Below, piece after piece: positions 47,424 through 60,073 of a stretch of 64,000 bases of DNA. Each line of letters opens with the position of its first letter. Within the stretch, counting starts at the first letter, position 1. The notes below the pieces were generated by a model. That model saw only the letters and a program-made list of their open reading frames with translations, made no database searches and was not told the origin of the DNA. Made by a program: the position numbers and the translations under genes. The stretch comes from Massilia aquatica (GTDB taxonomy: Bacteria > Pseudomonadota > Gammaproteobacteria > Burkholderiales > Burkholderiaceae_D): NCBI RefSeq assembly GCF_011682045.1, contig NZ_VVIW01000002.1, forward strand, positions 372,001 through 436,000, written 5' to 3'.

Positions 47424-47986
47424 AAACAGCCCTCTTTTTCCTGCTGGCCGGCATCACCAGCGCCGCACTGGCCGCGCCGGTCACCTACCAGATCGATCCG
47501 ACCCATACGTTTCCCAGCTTCGAAGCCGATCACATGGGCGTGTCGGTCTGGCGCGGCAAATTCAACAGCAGTTCGGGGAAGGTGTCGCTGGACAAGGCGG
47601 CCGGCCACGGCATGGTCGATATCAGCATCGACCCGGCCAGCATCGACTTCGGCCATGACGTCCTCAATACATGGGCGGCCGGTCCGGACCTGTTCGATGC
47701 GGCCAGGTTCGGCGCGGCGCGCTACAAGGGCAAGCTGACCGGCTTCAAGGAGGGCGCGCCGACCGAGCTGCAAGGCGAACTGACCCTGCATGGCGTGACC
47801 AAACCGGTCAGGCTGCAGATCAAGAGCTTCAAGTGCATCGCGCACCCGATGCATAAGCGCGAGATGTGCGGGGCGGACGCCTACGGCAGTTTCAAGCGCG
47901 ATGAGTTCGGCCTGACCGCCGGCAAGGAATACGGCTTCAAGATGGATGTCGAGCTGCGCATCCAGGTGGAAGCCGTGGCCGATTAA
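47420..47986 (+). CDS. YceI-family periplasmic lipid-binding protein
   Basis: 188 residues with signal peptide (MKTALFFLLAGITSAALA, cleavage before A19). Lipocalin-like YceI fold: YQIDPTHTFPSFEADHMGVSVWRGKFN, GMVDISIDPASIDFGHDVLN, GELTLHGVTKPVRLQI, and an extra CIAHPMHKREMCGADAYGSFKRDEFGL loop typical of the family. Binds isoprenoid-like lipids in known structures. Its end overlaps the convergent ene-reductase gene by 4 bases. Confidence 0.92.
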   Translation: MKTALFFLLAGITSAALAAPVTYQIDPTHTFPSFEADHMGVSVWRGKFNSSSGKVSLDKAAGHGMVDISIDPASIDFGHDVLNTWAAGPDLFDAARFGAARYKGKLTGFKEGAPTELQGELTLHGVTKPVRLQIKSFKCIAHPMHKREMCGADAYGSFKRDEFGLTAGKEYGFKMDVELRIQVEAVAD

Positions 47987-49041
47987 GCCTGCAGGGCAGG
48001 GTAGTCGGTGTAGCCGTCGTCGTTGGCGCCGTAGAATTTCTCCGGACGCGGGGTGTTGAGCGGGGCGTCCAGTTGCAGGCGGCGCGGCAGGTCGGGATTG
48101 GCGATGAACCAGATGCCGAAGGCCACCGCGTCGGCTTCACCGGACGCCACCAGGGCTTCGGCGCTCTCTTTGGTCAGCTTTTCGTTGGCGATGTAGACGC
48201 CGCCGAATTCCTGCTTCAGGTACGGTCCCAGGCGGCCTTCGCCCTGCGACTCGCGCGCGCAGATAAAGGCGATGCCGCGCTTGCCCAGCTCGCGCGCCAC
48301 GTAGCCGAAGGTCGCCTTCGGATCGGAGTCGCTCATGTCGTGCGCGTCGCGGCGCGGCGCCAGGTGCATCCCGACCTTGCCCGCGCCCCAGACGGCGATG
48401 CAGGCGTCGGTTACTTCGAGCATCAGGCGGGCGCGGTTTTCGACCGGACCGCCGTAGTTGTCGGTGCGCTTGTTGGTGCCGTCCTGCAGGAACTGGTCGA
48501 GCAGGTAGCCGTTGGCGCCGTGGATTTCCACGCCGTCGAAACCGGCCAGTTTGGCGTTCTCGGCACCTTGACGGTAGGCGGCCACGATGCCCGGAATCTC
48601 TTCCAGATCGAGCGCGCGCGGTACCGGATAGTCGCGCTGCGGACGCAGCAGGCTCACATGCCCCTTGGCCGCGATCGCGCTCGGCGCCACCGGGGCGTCG
48701 CCGTCCAGCAGGTCGGGATCCGAAATGCGGCCCACGTGCCACAGTTGCAGCATGATCTTGCCGCCGGCCTGGTGCACGGCTTCGGTCACCAGTTTCCAGC
48801 CTTCGACCTGCGCGTCGGACCAGATGCCCGGCGTGTCGGCATAGCCCACGCCCTGCGGCGTGACCGAGGTCGCTTCGCTCAGGATCAGGCCGGCGGAGGC
48901 GCGCTGCACGTAGTACTCGGCCATGAGCGCGTTCGGCACGCGGCCGCCGCCAATGGCACGGGCGCGCGTCAGCGGCGCCATGATGATGCGGTTTTGCAGC
49001 GTCAGATCGCCAATGGTGATCGGGTCGAATAATGTACTCAT
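47983..49041 (-). CDS. Old-yellow-enzyme family ene-reductase (NemA type)
   Basis: 352 residues, FMN-dependent TIM barrel. Start MSTLFDPITIGDLTLQNRIIMAPLTRARA; LQLWHVGRISDP, GVEIHGANGYLLDQFLQDGTNKRTDNYGG (substrate-binding H/N pair and FMN contacts) and the late GVYIANEKLT region are intact. Reduces activated C=C bonds, nitrate esters or N-ethylmaleimide with NADPH. Immediately downstream of an ArsR gene (9 bases between), forming a typical electrophile-response operon: the ArsR protein is probably its repressor. Confidence 0.93.
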   Translation of the reverse strand: MSTLFDPITIGDLTLQNRIIMAPLTRARAIGGGRVPNALMAEYYVQRASAGLILSEATSVTPQGVGYADTPGIWSDAQVEGWKLVTEAVHQAGGKIMLQLWHVGRISDPDLLDGDAPVAPSAIAAKGHVSLLRPQRDYPVPRALDLEEIPGIVAAYRQGAENAKLAGFDGVEIHGANGYLLDQFLQDGTNKRTDNYGGPVENRARLMLEVTDACIAVWGAGKVGMHLAPRRDAHDMSDSDPKATFGYVARELGKRGIAFICARESQGEGRLGPYLKQEFGGVYIANEKLTKESAEALVASGEADAVAFGIWFIANPDLPRRLQLDAPLNTPRPEKFYGANDDGYTDYPALQA

Positions 49042-49050
49042 GCGTTGCTC

Positions 49051-49377
49051 CTAAAGTCCCTGGTTCAGATGGTCGAGGAAGGCCTTGATGGTGTCCTCGT
49101 TGCGTTTGTAATAGATCCACTGGCCGACCTTGTGCCCGGTAATGAGCCCGGCGCGCTGCAGCGCTGCCAGGTGGGCCGAGACGGTCGATTGCGCCAGCCC
49201 CGTGCGCGCATCGATCAGGCCGGCGCACACCCCGGCCCCGAGCATGTGTTCCTGCCCGGAGAAATGGACATGCGGCTCCCTCAGCCAGGCAAGAATCTGG
49301 CGGCGCATCGGGTTGGCCAGAGCCTTGTGAATGGCGTCGGTTTGCATATCGGGTTTTTCCGAATCTAATATCGTCAT
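49051..49377 (-). CDS. ArsR-family regulator, copy 1
   Basis: 108 residues from the ATG at 49377; the frame is open to 49458 but this start lies within the palindromic operator. Winged helix: HKALANPMRRQILAWL, then AGLIDARTGLAQSTVSAHLAALQRAGLI (recognition helix) and GQWIYYKRNE (wing). The metal site ELCVCDL of true ArsR is absent; cysteine remains in GVCAGLI, which could sense electrophiles or redox. About 80% identical to the ArsR at 52565, also at DNA level. Upstream of the ene-reductase and divergent from solenoid gene 1. Confidence 0.9.
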   Translation of the reverse strand: MTILDSEKPDMQTDAIHKALANPMRRQILAWLREPHVHFSGQEHMLGAGVCAGLIDARTGLAQSTVSAHLAALQRAGLITGHKVGQWIYYKRNEDTIKAFLDHLNQGL

Positions 49378-49387
49378 CTTACGATAT
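49368..49387. promoter_or_regulatory. Palindromic operator over the ArsR-1 start
   Basis: ATATCGT-CATCTT-ACGATAT: 7-base perfect arms around 6 bases, spanning the ArsR ATG. Size and position fit an autoregulated ArsR/SmtB operator. It might also affect the divergent gene starting at 49492. Confidence 0.7.
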
Positions 49388-49491
49388 ATAAAAAAATCCT
49401 GCTTGCCGGGGACCAAAAGCGGGGAGGGCGTTGACGTTATACTCACCTTTCCCGGCATGGCCGCCGCCCCCTTGTGACTTTTCAGGACTGC

Positions 49492-52400
49492 ATGAACAAC
49501 ACCATCACCACATTGACCACATGGGACGGCTGGCCGCGCCTGTCATCCCTTGACCTGCGCGAGCGCTTCCCGGATGCCTGCGTCGGCGCGCGCCGCAACC
49601 CGCGCGCGCCGCTGTATCGACGGTAGCGCCGCCGGCGGGCGCGAGATCGACGACGAACCGGTGCGGCTGCTGCTCCTGAGCGGGCCGATCCGCATCGATC
49701 CCGCCCTGTGGCAGGGCCTCGACAATGCTGACTGGACCCACCTTGCAGTCGATGGCGACCTGCATCTGGACGGGCTCGGCCATGATGACGGCATGGCCCG
49801 GCTGTTTTTCGTCAGCGGCGACCTGCATGCCGATTCGGTCAACCTGGGCGAGTTGCCGAGCAACGCGGTGGCGGGGCGCATCGTCAGCCACTGCGCCTGG
49901 CTGTACGCGGGCGACGATTGCGCCATGCGCACGGCGCCCGAACTGCGTCTGCACACCCGCTTCCTGTTCGCCTGGTTCTACAGCATCGACGATCTGGAGA
50001 TCTGTCCGGAGGCGGTGATTTTCATCCTCGGCAATGGCGATTACTGCGCCGACCTGGGCTTGCCCAATCCGGCCTTCCAGTGGCACGAAGACGTCCATGT
50101 GCTGGCCGAACCGTGCGTGGCGATCGTGCCGCGCGAGGGCGCCGATGCCGACGGCTGGATGAAGGACGCGATCGAGCGGGCCTTGTCGCGCGGCCAGTCG
50201 ATTTACCGCGAGGGCGTCGATCTCGCCAGCTACCCGTATCACCGGGCGGCGCAGGAGGCGGCCGGCCTGAGCGATTTCCGCAGCGCCTACCTGCTGCACC
50301 GGAAGTCGGCGTCGATCTCGCCGGGCTACTACGAAGCCTGGTACGGCATGGGCGACGCCCTGTTCGGTGCGGGTGCCTACCGCCAGGCGCTGGCGGCCTG
50401 CCACCGGGCCGGCGGCCTGTTCCCCCCGGACCAGCACGGGCTGGTCAATCAAGCCTGGAACGACGGCGCGCTGTGCGCTCTGTTGCTGGGCCAGTTCGAC
50501 AGCGCCATCGCCCTGGCCAGCCTGTCGATCGACCACAACCACGACACGCAATACAAGGATGACGGGCACGCCCACGCTTACCGCTACCGGGCCGAGGCCT
50601 GGCTGCTGTCGGGCCGCCTCGATGAGGCCCTGGCCGACCTGGAACAGGCCCTGGCCCTGTGCCCCGGCGACGAGGCCTCGCTCTGGCTGACGGGACTGGC
50701 GCACCACCAGCGCCAGGACAGCGCCCAGGCGCGCTTCTACCACGACGAAGCGAACAAATACCACAGCACCTACGAGGCGTTTTACGATACCGAGGGCAGC
50801 ACCGCCCATCTGTATGACGCGCCCACCGAGGTCGACTGGCACACGCTGGCGCTCGACGCGCTGGACCCGCCGCCGAAGGACGAAGCGTACTGGCGCAATT
50901 TCATGCGCCACCACGACGCCAACCAGCTGTGGCGGGTGCCGCCCGCCGAGCGCAGCGCCACGCTGTGCATGGAAGTGGTGCAGGCCGCCGGGCCGCACCA
51001 GACCGACTACATCAAGGACATTCCCGCCGCCGCCTACACGCGCGAACTGGCGCAGCATCTCGTAGCGAGCGCGCCTGGCCTGCTGGGCGTGATTCCCGCG
51101 CACCTGGTCGACAAGGCGCTGTGCCTGTCGGCGCGGCCCGGCAGCGACGGCTTTTCGCTCGACCATGTGCCGCTGGCGCTGTGCGACGCCGACATCTACA
51201 CGCGCGCAGTGCAGTGCGGCGAGCGCATCGACCGGGTGCCGCCCGCGCACGTGACCCGGGACCTGTGCCTGGCCGCCGTGCGCGCCCACCCGGGCATGCT
51301 GGCCAGCGTGCCCGGCGAACTGCTCGACGACGCGCTGATCGCGGCCGCCATCGCCCGCGGCGACTACGCCAGTTTCGACCAGGACCTGCCCGAACTGTAC
51401 AAGACGCCGGCGCTGCTCGAACGCGCGCTCGATGAGGGCAAATGCGCGCTCGACGCCATCCCCGGCAATCGCTTCGACGCCGCGCTGTTCGCATTCGCGC
51501 GCCAGCGCTACGGCGATGATGCCGACTGGCCCGACATCGTCGCGCGCCACGGCCAGGCCGTGGTGGAAGCGGGCGCCGCCGCACTCGTATGCTGGAGCGT
51601 GTTCTGGGACGAGCCGTTCATGCTGGCGCAGATCGCCAGGCGCAAGAAGCAGCGCCTGGCGCCGTCCGGCATTCCCGAGCGCTGCTACAACGAAGCAGTG
51701 GCCGAGGCCGCGTTCCGGCGCGAGCCGGACCAGCTGCACTGCATCCCTTCCGCCTTTGTGACCCAGGCGATGTGCGACCAGGCCAGCGGCGCCAATCCCG
51801 GCGCGCTCGCGCGCATTCCGCTGCGCTTTCGCACGAGCGCCATCTGCGCCAGGGCGCTCGCCGCCAACCCCGCCAATCTGCCGCTGGTGCCGCTGGCGCT
51901 ACGCAGCGTCGACGCCTGCGTGCGCGCCGTGCGCCAGAAAAAGGAGCACCTGGGCAGCGTGCCGTGCGCGCTGCGCGCGGAGGTGATCGAGATCCTGGTG
52001 GCGGACCACCGCAAGAGAATCGACGAAGCGTGGCTGAACCTGAACCGCGGCCAGGGCGAGCCGCGCGAACCACGCGACTTCGACGCGCACCGCTTCGCCC
52101 AGGTGGCGCGCGAACTCGACATGCTGAACGCACGCGAAGACTACCCGCGCGCGCTGGTGCAGGCCGCTCTGGCGGAGAACATGCTCGATGGCGCCGACTG
52201 GCCCGATCTGGCCCTGTGGGCGCACGTGCTCGACAAAAAGCGCGCCATCTGCGATGAACTGGGATTATGGGATCTGCACGAGGCGACCTGCCGCAAGACC
52301 ATCGCCATACTCACGCAAGGCGAGCCGGGGTCCTACCCCGGCAGCGCGACGGCGATCCGCAGTGCGCTGCGCTGGAGCTACTTCCGCCTGGGCACGCGTC

Positions 52401-52561
52401 GCCTGGATGCCGGCCTGCCGCCCGACGCCCTGCAGGCCGACCTGGCCCTGGTCGAACAGGCGCTGGCCATGGTCGGTCCGCATGAAGACGAGGCGACCCT
52501 GAAACCGTTCAGGAAAGGCCACGCGGCGCTGCTGGCGCTGGTGGCGGCGCAACAGGCCTGA
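49492..52561 (+). CDS. Giant repeat protein 1 (strand-rich domain, TPR, DUF4116-like repeats); frameshifted start
   Basis: Unknown family with two relatives at 53.5-59.6 kb. The ATG at 49492 (CAGGA upstream) begins TTWDGWPRLSSLDLRERFPDACVGARR, which aligns with the relative's TSFDGFERLSPDQLEERFPDACVGERR, but stops at 49626. The rest of the homology continues in the next frame, open from a TTG at 49550, so ~1,020 residues result if the shift is bridged. Loss of one CG in the run at 49601-49609 would explain it. Order: strand-rich domain with VDGDLHLDG and FFVSGDLHADSVNL (~50-230); TPR-like helices (~250-430); repeats of about 24 residues with CxxAV...LxxVPxxLR (~470-840); helical tail. No signal peptide or membrane helix. 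Confidence 0.7.
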
Positions 52562-52564
52562 GGC

Positions 52565-52891
52565 CTACAAGCCCTCGTTGATCTGGTCGAGGAAGGCCTT
52601 GATGGCTTCCTCGTTGCGCTTGTAATAGATCCACTGGCCGACCTTGCGCGAACTGATCAACCCGGCGCGCTGCAGCGCCGCCAGGTGGGCCGAGACGGTC
52701 GATTGCGCCAGCCCCGTGCGCGCGTCGATCAGGCCGGCGCACACACCGACATCGAGATTGTGCTCCTGATGCGCGAAGTGCACGCGCGGCTCCTTGAGCC
52801 AGGCAAGGATCTGGCGCCGCATCGGATTGGCCAGCGCCTTGTGGATGGCGTCGACCGGCGAATCTGGTGTGGTTGAATCGGATTGTGTCAT
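52565..52891 (-). CDS. ArsR-family regulator, copy 2
   Basis: 108 residues from the ATG at 52891. Same winged-helix sequence as copy 1 (HKALANPMRRQILAWL, GLAQSTVSAHLAALQRAGLI, GQWIYYKRNE) with differences mainly in HVHFSGQEH versus RVHFAHQEH and the N-terminus. It lies 5 bases after the DUF1304 gene and is probably co-transcribed with it. Its 3' end is 3 bases from the convergent solenoid gene 1. No metal motif. Confidence 0.9.
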   Translation of the reverse strand: MTQSDSTTPDSPVDAIHKALANPMRRQILAWLKEPRVHFAHQEHNLDVGVCAGLIDARTGLAQSTVSAHLAALQRAGLISSRKVGQWIYYKRNEEAIKAFLDQINEGL

Positions 52892-52896
52892 CGGTC

Positions 52897-53259
52897 TCAG
52901 TGCGACAGCAGGTACAAGGCCAGTGCGATCGCCGCCGGCACGGTCTGGATGAACAGGATGGTCTTCTTGACCGTCAGCGCGCCCCACACGCCGGCCACCA
53001 TGATGCAGGCCAGGCCGTACACCACGAACGCGCGCGCCACCTCGGGCTGGGGATGGAGCAGGCCGACCGCCAGCGCCGCCACCAGGAAGCCGTTGTAGCA
53101 GCCCTGGTTGGACATGGCCGGCCCCATGATCTCGGCTTTTTCGGCCGTCAAACCGAACACGCGCCGCCCGCGCGTCTTGAACAGCACTGTTTCGAGCAGG
53201 ACGAAGTACACGTGCGCCAGCAGGATCAAACCGATCAGCACTTGTGCGGCAATGGCCAT
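52897..53259 (-). CDS. DUF1304 family membrane protein
   Basis: 120 residues, AAGGAG 7 bases before the ATG. Four membrane helices with the family pattern LILLAHVYFVLLETVLF, NQGCYNGFLVAALAVGLL and TVPAAIALALYLL. DUF1304 proteins are small inner-membrane proteins of unknown function, often paired with ArsR or MarR regulators. Leads the leftward DUF1304-ArsR operon and is divergent from solenoid gene 2. Confidence 0.92.
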   Translation of the reverse strand: MAIAAQVLIGLILLAHVYFVLLETVLFKTRGRRVFGLTAEKAEIMGPAMSNQGCYNGFLVAALAVGLLHPQPEVARAFVVYGLACIMVAGVWGALTVKKTILFIQTVPAAIALALYLLSH

Positions 53260-53339
53260 TCATGGCTCCTTGTTATGGAATGTGGGAAGCGTAGTGTAAC
53301 CGGGCGCAAGGCGCATGGCGACTGGCTGGAGGCGGAAAG

Positions 53340-53371
53340 TTGGCAGAAGCACTATTTGTTAATGTTATAAT
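53340..53371 (+). promoter_or_regulatory. Candidate promoter of solenoid gene 2
   Basis: A perfect TATAAT at 53366-53371 in an AT-rich patch (ttgttaatgttataataatg), unusual in this GC-rich region. TTGGCA at 53340 is the best -35 but the 20-base spacing is too long, so an activator may be needed. It leaves a leader of about 170 bases before the ATG at 53551. Confidence 0.35.
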
Positions 53372-53550
53372 AATGTTCCGCCGGTTTCTGCCGCGCCGAT
53401 CCACTGCTTCCATGCTTTCATGGCCACCCCTTTCTCCATCTTGATCACCTGGAACGGCGTCACGCGCATGGCGAGGCGGCCGTGCTCCACTACAAGGCCG
53501 CCTGCCAGCGCGCCTCCATATTGATCGACCGACCTGATGAACAACAACTG

Positions 53551-56500
53551 ATGAACGCCAACTTTACTGCGCTGGGGCCCGTGAGCGGCTACCCGACCAT
53601 CACCATCGCCGACTTTATCGCGCACTTTCCGCATGTGGAAACCAACGAGGAAGCCGCCGGCGACGGCGACTACGCCTTCAGCGACTACCACGCGGACGTG
53701 AGCATCATCCTGCTCACCGGCGATGTCTTCATTTCGCAGGAGCGCTTGAAGGATCTGCACGAGAACTTTCACCTGAAGCTGGCGGTGGACGGCAATCTGC
53801 ATGTCGACGGCGCGCCGGCCAACCTGTTTTATGTCAGCGGCGACGTGTTTTGCACAAGCGTCGACCTGGCCATCTTCGACTTGCACGAACCGGTCGGCGG
53901 CGCCATCACCGCCAGCGACTGCGCATGGATCGTCGGCGAGGAGCCGGCCCTGGTGCTCGATCCGCCCCTGGTGCGGCTGGAGACGCCGTATCTGTTCGCC
54001 TGCTGGTACCGGGTCGGGCCGATGGCGCTGTCGCCGTCCACGGTGCTGTTCATCTGCGGCGAGTGGCGGTACTCGGGCGCTTTTGCAGAACCGCGCGCGG
54101 TCTTCATCGGCGCCCCGATGGTGTTCGTGCTCGACCAGCGCTTCCTGTGGCCGTTCGAACACGCGACGGCCAACGAGCCGCAGTGGCGCAAGGGCGAGAT
54201 CGAAGGCGCCCTGCGCGCGGGCGAGGACATCCTGCGCAAGGAGGTATCGATAGCCAGCGTTCCGTTCGCGCAGGGCGCCGCCGACGCCATCCTGCTGGGC
54301 GACTACCGCAATGCCTATCTGCTGCACAAGCAGGCGGCGGCTGTCTCGCAGGGCGACTACACGGCGTGGTGCGGCATGGCCGACGCCCTGTTTTCGCAAG
54401 GTGCGTTCGCCCAGGCCTTGCCCGTGTACCAGCAAGCGAGCGCGCTGTTCCCGGACAACCAGACTGGCATGATCAACGAGGCGGCGCAAAACGCGGCGCT
54501 GTGCGCGGTGCGCTGTGGCGACCCCGCCACGGCGGTGCGCATGGCCACGCTGGCGATCGGGCACGCCACCACGCTGCGCGAGGACCCGTCGGAACTCTCG
54601 TTTGCGTACGAACTGCGCGCCGAGGCTTATCTGCAAATGAACGATCTGGCGCTGGCCGAGGCCGATCTCACGCACGCACTGGCGATCGACCCCGGCACCG
54701 GCTACGGCAACTGGCTGATGGGCGCCCTGCATTGCCGCCGCGACGAACTGGCGCTGGCGGCCGCGTGCCAGGGCAGGGCGGTGGCGGTTAATTCGGCCTT
54801 TGCCGCGCCGTACGCCAGCCACGCGGGGATCGACTTCCTGTATCCGGCCCCGGTCGATGTCGACTGGACCTCCCAGCCTGGAAGCGCCGGCGTGGCGCCG
54901 GTGCGCGACGAAGCATTCTGGGGCGTGTACCTGCGCTACGAGGATCCCAATCAAATCCGGCGCGTGCCGGTGGAGCTGCGCACGCCGGCGCTGTGCATGG
55001 CTGTTCTGGAGCAGTATTCGTGGGGCCCGAACGTCAGCTTCACCCAGTATTTTCCCGACGCGGCGTTCACGCGCGAGATGGCCGAAAACATGGTGCGGCG
55101 CTCGCCCGCCAACATCGCCGACGTTCCCGCGCGCCTGGTCGACGCCGCGCTGCTCGATCTGGTGGCCAACTCCGGGCATGGCCTGCGCCTGTCCCATCTG
55201 CCGCCGCACATGATCGACCATGCGGTCTGCCTGCGCGCCGTCATGGGCGGCGAGGATCTCGCCCAGGTGCCGCCAGAGCTGCTCGATGACGCCATGCGGG
55301 CGGCCGCCGTCCTGCACATTGGCGTGCACGCCAGCGAATTGCCTGCATGGGCCACCAAGCCCGTGCTGCGGCTGGCCGTGGCGACCTACAAGCAGGCGCT
55401 CGACAGCATTCCGTGCTTTGCCTTCGACCGCGACCTGTACGAACTGGCGCATGCAACCTGGGGCGTTGACGCCGACTGGCCCGAGATCGTGGCCCGGCAC
55501 GGGCAAGCCGCCTGCCTGGACGACAACTTCTGGACCGGCGCGGCCAGAACATGCTGGCGCGTGTTCTGGGACGAAGCGTTCATCCTGCGGCAAATGGCGC
55601 GCACCGACGGCGCCCACCTCAGGCCCGAACATATTGCGCCCGAATGCATGACGCGCAAGGTGGCCGAGGCTTGTCTTGCGCAGCATCCGGACTGCCTGGA
55701 GTGCATACCGGCCATCTGGATTTCGCAGTCCGCCTGCGAACGCTTCATCGCGGCCTACCCGAAGCGCCTGGGCAGCGTGCCGGTGGCCATGCGCACCGCC
55801 AGCATCTGCGCCGCCGCCATGGAGGCAGCGCCCGGTCAGCTGGCGCTGGTGCCGATCGCCCTGCGCAGTGTGGCCTTTTGCGTGGCCGCCGTACGCGCCG
55901 ATTCGGCCTGCGCCGACGAAGTGCCGAATGCGCTGATGCGCGCCGTCTTCGCCATCCTGCTCGAGCAGCACGGCGACGAGCTCTATCGCGACTGGCTGAC
56001 CATGCGCCGGGGCGACGGCGCCTTGTGCGCCGAGCCGCCCGATATCGACCTGGCGCTGGCCGACTTCCATACCGTGGCCGAGGCCCCGGCCAGCGCGGAC
56101 TTCGACGGCGACGAGATAGCCGAGGCACAGTGGATGATCGGCTATTGCCATCATCTGCGCGGCATGCATGCCGAGGCGGCGCTGTGGCGCGAAAAATCAG
56201 GCTTTGAAGAAGGCTACGACGAGATGGGCTTCGACGAACCGGTGGCACCGTGCGACGCCGACGCCCGCCCGGCCGAGCGCGACGCGGCGCTATCGCCCAC
56301 GGCGGCGCCGCAGCAGGCGGTCCGGCGCATCACCAGCTTCGACGGCTTCGAGCGCCTGTCGCCCGATCAGTTAGAGGAACGCTTCCCCGACGCCTGCGTC
56401 GGCGAGCGGCGCGATCCGCAGGAACCGGGCAGTTCGTGCAGCACCGACAACGGCGCCTGCTGGCCCGACAGCGATGCGCTGATCCTGTTCCTGCCCGGCG

Positions 56501-57723
56501 ATGTGATGATCGACGATCGCCTCCTGCAGCACAGCGCCGATCCCGGCTGGACCCACATTGTGGTCGAAGGCGACCTGTATCTGGAGGGCCGCGACGCCGG
56601 TGTGCGCGGCGCGCGCGGCATCGACCGGGTGTATTTTGTCGGCGGCGACCTGCATGCGCGCTCGCTCGACCTGACCCGCATCCCCAGCAATGCGGTAGCG
56701 GGGCGCATCGTCACCGACTGCGCCTGGCTGTGGGCCGAGGACGACTGCGCCATGCGCACCGCCCCCGAACTGCGCCTCGATGCCGGCTTCCTGTTCGCCT
56801 GGTTCTACACCGTCAACGACATGACGATCAGCCCGGACACCGTCATCTTCATCCTCGGCAACGACGATTATTGCGATGACATGGGACTGCCCAATCCCGT
56901 CTTCCAGTGGCACGAAGATATTTACGTGCTGGCCGAACCGTTCGTCTGCATCGTCGAAGAAGAGCGCAGCGACACCAACGGCTGGGTCGACACGGCGATC
57001 GAACAGGCGCTGGCGCGCGGCGAGTCGATTCTCCGCCATGGCGTCGACATGGCCTGCTACCCGTATCACCGCGCCGCGCAAGCGCAGGCCAGCGCGCGCG
57101 AGCACCGCAGCGCGTATCTGCTGCATAAAAAATCGGCCGCCACCTCGCCCGGCTTCTACCCATCCTGGCTGGGCATGGGCCGTGCCCTGTTCAACGCGGG
57201 AGCGTACGAGCAGGCGCTGGACATGTTCATCCAGGCCGGTACGCTTTTCCCCGCCGAACAGACTGCCATCGACAATCGTGGATATGAGCTGGCATCGCTC
57301 AGTGCCGTGTACCTGGGCCGGTTCGAGGATGCCATCGCCTGGGCTACCCTCTCGATCGCCCATAACGAGGACGCTGAGGATGCGGAAGAAGCGCACGGCT
57401 ACGCCTACCGCTGCCGTGGCGAAGCGCACCTGCTGGCGGGTAGCCTCGATCTGGCGTTCGCCGACCTGCAAGAGGCGCTCAAGCGCGACCGCTACGACTG
57501 GACTTCGCACTGGCTGCTGGGACAGGTGCACTACCAGCGCGGCGAACATGAGCGTGCGCGCTTCCTGCACGGCGCCGCAGCGCGCGGCGCGCGCTATTTC
57601 GCGCCGTATTACGATACCCGCAGCGGCACCGCATTTCTGTATCCAGCCCCGTGCCAGCTTGACTGGGACCAGGTTCCACTCGACACAGTGCAGCTTCCCC
57701 CGGCGCCGGATCACGACCAGTAA
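53551..57723 (+). CDS. Giant repeat protein 2, one and a half modules
   Basis: 1,390 residues from the ATG at 53551; a GTG at 53482 with GAGG upstream is an alternative. Module A: strand-rich domain ~1-230 (LLTGDVFISQERL, LAVDGNLHVDG, FYVSGDVFCTSVDL), TPR-like helices ~236-416 (GMADALFSQGAFAQALPVYQQA), ~24-residue DUF4116-like repeats ~460-815 (SICAAAMEAAPGQLALVPIALRS). Module B repeats the strand-rich domain from ~926 and the TPR part to ~1350, then the protein ends at a TAA exactly where module A continues into its repeats. No signal peptide, membrane helix or catalytic motif. Function unknown; scaffold or ligand-capturing roles would suit such repeats. Confidence 0.85.
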   Translation: MNANFTALGPVSGYPTITIADFIAHFPHVETNEEAAGDGDYAFSDYHADVSIILLTGDVFISQERLKDLHENFHLKLAVDGNLHVDGAPANLFYVSGDVFCTSVDLAIFDLHEPVGGAITASDCAWIVGEEPALVLDPPLVRLETPYLFACWYRVGPMALSPSTVLFICGEWRYSGAFAEPRAVFIGAPMVFVLDQRFLWPFEHATANEPQWRKGEIEGALRAGEDILRKEVSIASVPFAQGAADAILLGDYRNAYLLHKQAAAVSQGDYTAWCGMADALFSQGAFAQALPVYQQASALFPDNQTGMINEAAQNAALCAVRCGDPATAVRMATLAIGHATTLREDPSELSFAYELRAEAYLQMNDLALAEADLTHALAIDPGTGYGNWLMGALHCRRDELALAAACQGRAVAVNSAFAAPYASHAGIDFLYPAPVDVDWTSQPGSAGVAPVRDEAFWGVYLRYEDPNQIRRVPVELRTPALCMAVLEQYSWGPNVSFTQYFPDAAFTREMAENMVRRSPANIADVPARLVDAALLDLVANSGHGLRLSHLPPHMIDHAVCLRAVMGGEDLAQVPPELLDDAMRAAAVLHIGVHASELPAWATKPVLRLAVATYKQALDSIPCFAFDRDLYELAHATWGVDADWPEIVARHGQAACLDDNFWTGAARTCWRVFWDEAFILRQMARTDGAHLRPEHIAPECMTRKVAEACLAQHPDCLECIPAIWISQSACERFIAAYPKRLGSVPVAMRTASICAAAMEAAPGQLALVPIALRSVAFCVAAVRADSACADEVPNALMRAVFAILLEQHGDELYRDWLTMRRGDGALCAEPPDIDLALADFHTVAEAPASADFDGDEIAEAQWMIGYCHHLRGMHAEAALWREKSGFEEGYDEMGFDEPVAPCDADARPAERDAALSPTAAPQQAVRRITSFDGFERLSPDQLEERFPDACVGERRDPQEPGSSCSTDNGACWPDSDALILFLPGDVMIDDRLLQHSADPGWTHIVVEGDLYLEGRDAGVRGARGIDRVYFVGGDLHARSLDLTRIPSNAVAGRIVTDCAWLWAEDDCAMRTAPELRLDAGFLFAWFYTVNDMTISPDTVIFILGNDDYCDDMGLPNPVFQWHEDIYVLAEPFVCIVEEERSDTNGWVDTAIEQALARGESILRHGVDMACYPYHRAAQAQASAREHRSAYLLHKKSAATSPGFYPSWLGMGRALFNAGAYEQALDMFIQAGTLFPAEQTAIDNRGYELASLSAVYLGRFEDAIAWATLSIAHNEDAEDAEEAHGYAYRCRGEAHLLAGSLDLAFADLQEALKRDRYDWTSHWLLGQVHYQRGEHERARFLHGAAARGARYFAPYYDTRSGTAFLYPAPCQLDWDQVPLDTVQLPPAPDHDQ

Positions 57724-57735
57724 AGAGGTGACAGG

Positions 57736-59637
57736 ATGGCGACACTGAAAGACCAGGCCTACTGGGACGACTACATGCGCAAGCAGCCGCGCAATCCGTC
57801 CATGCTTGGCAGCGTGCCGCAGCAGTTTCGCACGACCGCGCTGTGCGAATGGCTGATGGGGCAGTGTGGCGAGAACGCCAGCTTCGTCCGGTTCATACCG
57901 GAGCAGGCGTTCACGCGCGCCCTGGCCGAAGCGGCGCTGGCGCGATCGGCCGCGCTGCTCGGGCACATTCCGGCGCGGCTGATCGACAAGCAGCTGTGCA
58001 TGTCGGCGCGCGCCGGCGACCATGGTTTCGACCTTGCGCACGTGCCGCCCGAGGTCATCGACCGCGAGCTGTGCGTGCATGCCCTGCAATGCGGCGCCAG
58101 TCTGGCCGACGTTCCCTCCGCCTTGCTGGACAAGGCCATGTGCATGGCCGCCGTCATTCTTGGTCGCCATCAGCCCGACCAGGTGCCGGTGGCGCTGATC
58201 GACGACGACATCATCGCCGCGGCCATCGCGCACGGCAGTGTCGACAGCTTCAACGACGGCTTGCCGGAACTGTTCAAGTCACCCAACTATTTGACCATGG
58301 CGATCGAGCGCTACAAGAGCGCACTCGACGCCATTCCCGGCAACCGCTTTAGCGGGCAGCTGTACGAGTGCGCTCAGCGCCTGTACGGCAGCGACGCCGA
58401 CTGGCCCGCCATCGTGGCGCGCCACGACGAATCGCGCATGGCGCGCGAGCCCGACGCCTTGTATGCCGAGGTATGCTGGAGCGTGTCCTGGACCGAGCCG
58501 GTGATGCTCGCGCAGATCGGCAAAAAGAAGAGCGAGGGACTGTGGCCGTTCGAAATCCCGCCCGAACGCTTTACCAGGGCCGTCGCCAAAGCCTGTGTCG
58601 ACGTGCATCCGCTCCACCTGAATTCGGTGCCGATGCACTGGATCGACCAGGCCATGTGCGAACGCGTCAGCCTGGCGTACCCCGACCTGCTCGACCTGAT
58701 TCCGGTGGCCCGGCGCACGGCCAGGCTGTGCGCGCGCGCCATGAAGGCCAGTTACACCACCCTGGGCATGGTGCCGCTGGCGCAGCGCAGCGTCAAGATG
58801 TGCGTGACCACCGTGCTCGCCAACCAGGACCGCTCGGACCAGGTGCCATTGGCCCTGCGGCGCGAGGTGTTCGACATCCTGGTCGCCCGGCATGCCGAGC
58901 ACTTTTACGCCAGCTGGCTGTACATGCACCGTGGCGACGCCGCGCTGTGCAGCGAGCCGCGCCGGGTCGACCTGGCGCTGGCCGACTACCGCCACGTCGT
59001 CGACACTGGCGTGAACGGGGAGATGCTCCAGTACGATGTCGACCGGAGCCTTTTCATGATCGGGTACTGCCGCTTCCTGCTCGGCGACACGGCCGGCATG
59101 TCGGCCGAGGAGTGCGCCGAGCATGCCAGGTCGTGGTTCGGCGAGGCGCTTGCGCCGGTCGACGTCGACCGCCCGCAACTATTCCTGCTGGTGGGCGATG
59201 CGCAGGGATTCAACGAGCGTGGCGACCACGCCCGCGCCCTGATCCAGGCGCAGCGTGCCGGTGAGCTGCTCCACGCCGCCGGCTGTGCCGACCCGGTATT
59301 ACTGGCCGAGGTGGCCGGCCAGAAGCGGCTTGCCCTGAACGGCCTTGGACGGTGCGACGAGAGCGACCAACTGTGCGAGGAGGTGATGGACACGCTCGGT
59401 GACGACTTGATGTACGATGACGACCCGGCCTGCAACCGGCTGCGCGTGGTGGTGCGCGCCTGCTGCCTGCAACTGGCCACGCGTCTGTTGGACGCTGGGC
59501 CCACGCCTGAAGCGCTGGAAAAAATCCTGGACTTGCTCGATGCCGGCGCCGACGTGGAAGCCGGTCCCGGCGAAGACGAAGACGTGACGCGCCCGTTCAC
59601 CGAACTGCGGGCCAGGCTGGCCGCGCGCGCGCCCTGA
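57736..59637 (+). CDS. Giant repeat protein 3, second half of module B
   Basis: 633 residues, AGAGGTGACAGG before the ATG. It starts [12 protein letters not shown], which lines up with KDEAYWRNFMRHH in the middle of protein 1 and RDEAFWGVYLRYE in protein 2. It then has the repeat array ~15-395 ([53 protein letters not shown]) and the helical tail. It is in the same frame as protein 2, with only TAA plus four codons between them. So it is the missing part of module B, translated by reinitiation or separated by a nonsense change. Function unknown. Confidence 0.85.
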
Positions 59638-59687
59638 GCGCCACACCGGCGCGCCCCCGGTGGTATACTTCAGCGACCTTTTTCTCC

Positions 59688-59736
59688 GGCAGGGACGACC
59701 CTGCCACCGACGGAGCCAGGCTTGGACGACCTTGCC
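59688..59736 (+). promoter_or_regulatory. Guanidine-II (mini-ykkC) riboswitch
   Basis: Two hairpins with ACGA loops, the class hallmark: GGCAGGG-ACGA-CCCTGCC (59688-59705) and GGCTTGG-ACGA-CCTTGCC (59719-59736, two mismatches mid-stem), 13 bases apart. The ribosome site AAGGAG (59741-59746) follows at once. Guanidinium binding of both loops frees the ribosome site. The downstream gene is the guanidinium exporter gdx/sugE, the usual partner. Confidence 0.92.
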
Positions 59737-59752
59737 AACCAAGGAGTTTGTC

Positions 59753-60073
59753 ATGGCATGGATCTATTTGTTCGTTGCGGGTTTGCTGGAAGTGGGCTGG
59801 GCGGTCGGCCTGAAATACACGCATGGTTTTTCGCGCCTGGTGCCCTCGGTACTGACCCTGGCCGCCATGTCCGGCAGCGTCGGCATGCTTGGCCTTGCGC
59901 TGCGCCACCTGCCGCTGGGGACCGCCTACGCCATCTGGACCGGCATCGGCACGGTCGGCACGGCGATCTTCGGCATGCTGGTGCTGGGCGAACCGGCCGG
60001 CGCCATGCGCCTTGGCTGCATCGCCCTGATCGTCGCCGGTATCCTCGGGCTCAAACTGCTCTCGCCGGGCTGA
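59753..60073 (+). CDS. gdx: Guanidinium exporter (SMR family, Gdx/SugE)
   Basis: 106 residues from the ATG at 59753. Four membrane helices; the essential glutamate is E13 in [21 protein letters not shown], the Gdx-type sequence rather than Emr[15 protein letters not shown] in helix 3 and [25 protein letters not shown] in helix 4 complete the family pattern. Works as an antiparallel dimer exchanging guanidinium for protons. Control by the guanidine-II riboswitch just upstream makes the function secure. Confidence 0.96.

Follow-up and report, generated by a model that had tools for sequence, protein, structure and literature searches.

Do the ArsR genes of Massilia aquatica and the very large genes that face away from them belong to one duplicated system, or are they two separate things that share a locus? 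The question arises in a stretch of 64,000 nucleotides (the window; positions 372,001 to 436,000 of contig NZ_VVIW01000002.1, from a genome of 7.47 Mb in 99 contigs), for which a reading made without database searches (the sequence-only reading) had proposed an ArsR-controlled system of giant repeat proteins, present twice. The minus strand of this locus carries an old yellow enzyme (OYE) gene, ArsR-1, ArsR-2 and a DUF1304 gene, and the plus strand carries the giant genes P1, P2 and P3. The two minus-strand ArsR genes, the DUF1304 gene and the very large plus-strand open reading frames (ORFs) are real genes, as attested by NF033788, PF06993 and the ORFs themselves, but they had been grouped wrongly: the ArsR–OYE–DUF1304 unit and the giant family are two unrelated things. 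As a whole statement, we favor, as somewhat likelier to hold than to fail, an ArsR–OYE–DUF1304 unit lying next to a lineage-restricted, cytosolic, protein-binding repertoire of tandem giant paralogs.

The separation emerged from a comparison with relatives, in which eleven window proteins were searched with tblastn over stretches from related genomes (ArsR matches were taken at E 1e-5, and some borders fall beyond the ends of the compared stretches). Seven main-locus genomes of the genus, namely that of the window, Massilia mucilaginosa CCM 8733 (G170; its ortholog is 85% identical to P1), G148, G181, G138, G192 and G111, share the order YceI, OYE, ArsR, DUF1304, giant genes, SMR, proline-racemase family and AstE family. 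Four other congeneric genomes (G094, G222, G125 and G231; completeness 81% for G222 and 48% for G231) possess the ArsR–OYE pair without the giant family. In these, OYE and ArsR stand on one flank and the SMR, racemase and AstE genes on the other, and the slot between them holds, as read by eye, EamA-type permease, SDR, tautomerase, LysR, response-regulator or peptidase genes; in G125 this comparison detected no DUF1304. OYE adjoins ArsR in all 11 congeneric genomes examined. Conversely, 11 stretches with family genes (L046, L050, L054, L055, L056, L061, L131, L132, L072, L073 and L074) have no ArsR-1 or ArsR-2 match at the above threshold, these being partly dependent in that L046, L131 and L050 represent one locus in three genomes and L055 and L132 one locus in two. 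Thus, relatives of the giant proteins occur without this ArsR, the divergent ArsR gene is not consistently kept beside them, and the proposed joint system fails by the sequence-only reading's own measure.

The position of the candidate ArsR operator, a perfect palindrome ATATCGTN6ACGATAT (49368..49387, no strand), agrees with this partition. With up to two mismatches allowed, it has a single match in the 64-kb window versus 0.01 expected, and its position is conserved: the core ATCGTN6ACGAT (with at most one arm change) marks the OYE-linked ArsR of all 11 genomes, whether giant genes are present or not, and none of the three ArsR-2 copies. Hence, the target of ArsR is most likely its own OYE unit, and it would most likely act through this palindrome to repress the OYE gene together with its own promoter. 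An ArsR-controlled stress or defense system of giant proteins could draw on the fact that in each of the seven main-locus genomes a giant gene lies about 1 kb or less from ArsR, and on the 105 bp that separate the palindrome from P1 in the window. Against it stand the four genomes with ArsR–OYE alone, the 11 family stretches lacking ArsR-1/2 and the palindrome itself, which was not found before P2 or before the orthologs adjoining DUF1304. We consider such a system very improbable, and a joint ArsR/giant unit was rejected on synteny and operator position.

The unit itself is of a familiar kind. ArsR-1 (49051..49377, minus strand, alternative starts at 49347 and 49458) is, from its profile match and synteny, the probable regulator of its partner, an OYE or N-ethylmaleimide reductase-like gene (47983..49041, minus strand; PF00724 at 258 bits, PRK10605 at 380 bits, under its cut-off of 403). 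Both ArsR proteins belong to the ArsR/SmtB family, with NF033788 scores of 63.5 bits for ArsR-1 (scanned as 49051-49458) and 67.0 bits for ArsR-2 (52565..52891, minus strand) against a cut-off of 55 bits; the DUF1304 gene of the unit (52897..53259, minus strand) matches PF06993 at 108.9 bits. Like other ArsR/SmtB-regulated OYE (NemA-like) units, it has ArsR beside OYE and one palindrome at the ArsR start; it differs in the duplication of ArsR in the window, and otherwise nothing about it is unusual. ArsR-2 is a duplicate of ArsR-1, with 82% protein identity over 99 codons and 84% DNA identity over 300 bases, so that the earlier estimate of about 80% for the proteins stands and that of close to 90% for the DNA does not. 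Two ArsR genes are present in three of the seven carrier genomes (the window, M. mucilaginosa and G138), and in G138 the two copies are adjacent, with no giant gene between them. Since the ArsR copies are this alike whereas P1 and P2a are distant paralogs, far apart in the tree described below, we rejected a recent duplication of an ArsR-plus-giant unit and, with it, the duplicated layout. ArsR would rather have been duplicated within the clade, with the giant paralogs in a slot of variable content that is bounded by DUF1304 and by the SMR-family transporter gene (59660..60073, plus strand; PF00893), whose position as the right edge of the slot is conserved.

What, then, are the giant genes? 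A full copy is built, in order, of a strand-rich head, TPRs, an alpha-solenoid of VPxxLR repeats and a helical tail. The VDGDLHLDG-like strands, TPRs and VPxxL motifs noted from the letters alone are all there, with the VPxxL motifs often 24 residues apart and Pfam TPR_2 matches above the cut-off of 27 bits in P1 (35.1) and P2 (52.4); P3 has no Pfam TPR match. The window holds three family copies (P1, P2a and P2b), and a fourth, P4, begins at position 345528 of contig C22, 76 kb upstream of P1. P1 (49492..52561, plus strand) starts with an ATG at 49492 in one frame and runs on from 49550 in another. The apparent break near 49603 is a 2-base difference from the M. mucilaginosa ortholog within a short CG run, and the frame of that ortholog is open across this point. 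The P1 head domain (49661..50233, plus strand), delimited by the alignment of heads, has no convincing Pfam family. P2 and P3 had been taken for two further single proteins; P2 is instead one long ORF with two fused copies, and P3 a split-off part of the second. The first, P2a (53551..56286, boundary approximate, plus strand), lacks the C-terminal tail, has orthologs in G138 and M. mucilaginosa, and is joined in frame to P2b (56287..57723, plus strand), which comprises only head and TPRs and ends with a TAA at 57723. P3 (57736..59637, plus strand) then opens with a new ATG as an ORF of its own and supplies the VPxxLR solenoid and helical tail of the P2b copy. The P2a–P2b fusion is seen in G138 too.

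This untidiness invites the explanation that an expanded family is decaying, has little current function, and is accumulating fusions, splits, frameshifts and deletions by drift; the P1 frameshift, the P2a–P2b fusion, the P2b/P3 split and the cut-down copies that we found in G111, G192, G138 and M. mucilaginosa would all accord with it. Against it, the genes are under selection at the protein level. By a simple counting method, the ratios of nonsynonymous to synonymous substitution rates (dN/dS) in six giant-gene ortholog comparisons over 620–1390 codons range from 0.28 to 0.40 (P1 0.40, P2a 0.28, P3 0.40, P2 versus G138 0.37, G148 versus G181 0.34, and P4 0.33), with the split-off P3 included. 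The values for neighboring genes are 0.08 and 0.10 for OYE, 0.06 for DUF1304 and 0.10 for ArsR-2; per-domain values in the giant genes spread from 0.26 to 0.53, with no domain consistently fast. Orthologs are also retained across species. In a tree of 25 head+TPR sequences (with G001, G009 and M. mucilaginosa 2 flagged as long branches and three inner forks open), P1 groups with M. mucilaginosa 1, P2b with G138, G111 and G192b, P2a with G138 and M. mucilaginosa 3, and P4 with M. mucilaginosa and G138; a short form of G181 and G138 makes up a further class, and G148, G181, G192a and M. mucilaginosa 2 another without a window member. These classes cross species: the copies are old paralogs, which different species have kept or lost differently. 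Decay, accordingly weighed with evidence on both sides, seems to us unlikely.

The structural and library searches that had been suggested as checks bear out the domain layout and yield little by way of relatives. AlphaFold models were made for six window and M. mucilaginosa sequences, the head being modeled within P2b. As expected, the N-terminal part is strand-rich and followed by TPR helices (P2b: strands 65-190, TPR helices 255-441, predicted local distance difference test (pLDDT) 73.6), and the array is all-helical (P3: pLDDT 76.3, predicted template modeling (pTM) score 0.40). The titles of the best 50 of 1589 and 1056 fold-search matches indicate TPR proteins or helical-repeat proteins of other kinds, the P3 matches having low TM-scores. 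When the PDB was searched by sequence, P1 matched TPR proteins as well as designed TPR fusions, and the head had a single leucine-rich-repeat match, a weak one (E 0.11). Hidden Markov model searches found no family match for head or array in Pfam, NCBIfam, PADLOC or PHROGs (the last with heads only): 15 heads gave two stray weak Pfam matches, in one member each (E 0.07 and 0.14), and no PHROGs match at E 0.01. The head domain is in no library searched, and the family is a rare one with ordinary neighbors. Among the matches listed, no title or abstract found on DUF4116, on WG, immunity and type VI, on TPR, immunity and Tox-GHH2, or on ArsR, OYE and DUF1304 describes it.

The likeness of the array to DUF4116 (PF13475), which the sequence-only reading had remarked upon, holds for the fold and not for the profile. 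The P3 model is an alpha-solenoid of short helical repeats, as is the contact-based model of PF13475 given in the available part of PMC8078820; this fold is not specific to DUF4116, and by profile the window proteins all lie outside the family, P1–P3 having no Pfam match to it at E ≤ 1. The sole DUF4116 match in the genome itself is a WG paralog, at 22.5 bits versus a cut-off of 24.9. The VPxxLR solenoid is common to the giant proteins and to large WG-repeat (PF14903) proteins (BLAST 3e-11; hhalign probability 98.4). The two families share this homologous solenoid, tandem arrays and the coexistence of long and short forms, and they differ in that WG repeats stand in place of head and TPRs and that the WG genes occupy other loci (G000 C24:2303-10868 and C77:213848-227499, loci L059 and L060), with short and long forms roughly alternating in the C77 array. 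Both families occur in the same 7 of the 17 genomes of the genus; as these seven may be one clade, the shared distribution may go back to a single event. The head also has relatives of its own: a G148 protein (L087:1150-1869) is related to it with an hhalign probability of 96, and open frames of 249-254 amino acids in other genomes match the head profile. Small head-related proteins of 239-254 amino acids are encoded at L087 and also at L138, L141, L142 and L146, and visual inspection suggests a signal peptide at the N-terminus of the L087 protein. They may be single-domain forms of the head that are exported.

The giant proteins themselves are probably cytosolic. Averaged over 19 residues, their hydropathy peaks at 1.72 (P1), 1.93 (P2) and 1.38 (P3), and since these peaks are internal and fall in helical-repeat regions, membrane helices are likely absent. 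Scans of P1–P3 with Pfam and NCBIfam found no enzyme domain. This lack, together with a combination of head, TPR and solenoid that is typical of assemblies, would suit a scaffold or cytoskeleton-like element whose strand-rich head polymerizes or docks while the solenoid holds the assembly. Bactofilin (PF04519) is, moreover, missing from exactly the 7 family carriers within the genus and present in the other 10 of the 17 genomes. Its profile gives no convincing match to the head, however (hhalign probability 37.7 over 28 columns, with no Pfam bactofilin match in 15 heads), and three carriers found outside the taxonomic family (G305, G564 and G610) all have bactofilin (sample, 263/399; G001 and G009 left out), so that the split within the genus is probably a clade effect. 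Hence, we rejected bactofilin both as a relative and as the thing replaced, and hold a scaffold to be an improbable explanation.

Family members are thinly spread. The head profile finds carriers in 7/17 genomes of the genus, 9/288 of the family sample, 4/399 of the order sample and 2/398 of the phylum sample, each count including the genome itself and the samples overlapping; a search with P1 matched 24 of 294 family genomes, many by TPR or array alone. Full-length relatives of about 1130–1180 amino acids are found in G305 (a tandem pair) and G610, the latter also encoding a further protein with two heads, and short head+TPR forms in G564, G009 and G001. At L055:7828-9570, a short head+TPR gene comes immediately after a gene for a response-regulator receiver and shares its orientation. 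A cargo of mobile elements was rejected, as the P2b head has no plasmid or phage match (tblastn, E 1e-3) and a search of viral contigs with the head profile gave no match either. A defense island, which the earlier reading had left as a guess, was likewise rejected: PADLOC matched the giant proteins only weakly (P1 TPR, E 0.0054), and the immediate neighbors, within 47.4–62.1 kb of the window, belong to the ordinary YceI, OYE, SMR, proline-racemase and AstE/AspA families. ArsR-1 does match the Csa3 models of PADLOC (best E 4.8e-17), which we put down to its helix-turn-helix (HTH).

Could the giant proteins be immunity proteins? A polyimmunity locus would encode diverged tandem proteins that neutralize effectors injected by type VI or other polymorphic toxin systems. 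The available part of PMC3482391 describes homogeneous loci of this kind, built of tandem, variable paralogs, and places a dash for Tox-GHH2 in its immunity column. The window family likewise consists of diverged tandem paralogs, their number varies between relatives, and its proteins change fast. In addition, a short head+TPR form stands within a type VI cassette of G001 (L056:1-11440), which comprises DUF2169, a thiolase-like gene (weak PF08545, E 0.033), a PAAR-like gene, a toxin matching Tox-GHH2, a gene for a 326-amino-acid protein, the head+TPR protein, a HEAT-like gene and a VgrG-like piece. This is the single toxin-cassette context found, and beside the window locus no toxin gene was noticed. 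The occurrence of type VI systems does not account for where the family is found, since VipB is found in 16 of the 17 genomes of the genus regardless of whether they carry the family (the one without it is 48% complete). The giant proteins, of about 1100 amino acids, also far exceed the usual size of immunity proteins, which counts against this explanation. We regard a polyimmunity locus as a tentative possibility, on the whole unlikely.

Several further observations weigh against our preferred reading of the locus. First, the head+TPR protein is an optional extra in the G001 cassette, because the neighboring cassette (L075:5639-9998) has homologs of the toxin, of the 326-amino-acid protein (351 amino acids here) and of the HEAT-like protein, and no head+TPR family copy was found in it. 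Second, the gene for the 326-amino-acid protein, which adjoins the toxin, is the better immunity candidate there. Third, no toxin gene was seen among the neighbors at other family loci, mostly read by eye. Fourth, fast change is not confined to the giant genes, as ArsR-1 has a dN/dS of 0.41. Fifth, ArsR could affect P1 alone, given the short distance between P1 and the palindrome. Sixth, another HTH gene, ArsR-like by eye, lies 2.5 kb from the M. mucilaginosa P4 copy (L131:3318-3650); it is not a match to ArsR-1 or ArsR-2. The P4 locus (L046, L131 and L050) has other neighbors of note: HNH and DUF1963 genes lie upstream of the P4 copy in L131, and in L050 the P4 giant gene is followed by an RTX-type nonapeptide-repeat gene (PF00353), an exception to be weighed against the lack of visible toxin genes at the other loci.

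Under our reading of a protein-binding repertoire, the giant proteins would bind other proteins, with head and solenoid offering recognition surfaces and the diverged copies covering different partners. That these partners are incoming antibacterial effectors, in a polyimmunity-like role, is a weaker suggestion that we would entertain only tentatively. It is doubtful, too, that the giant and WG families together constitute a so far undescribed intracellular repertoire for capturing proteins, whose strand-rich heads (VDGDLH with TPRs, or WG) are exchangeable on a common VPxxLR solenoid, and which was spread by tandem duplication and loss and is used against proteins injected by competitors. The picture of a regulator facing a giant gene was the product of a single duplication of ArsR next to a variable slot, and it did not survive the comparison with relatives. 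If the binding repertoire is real, the protein-recognition systems of bacteria would gain a large, modular class, and DUF4116-like solenoids a first suggested role.

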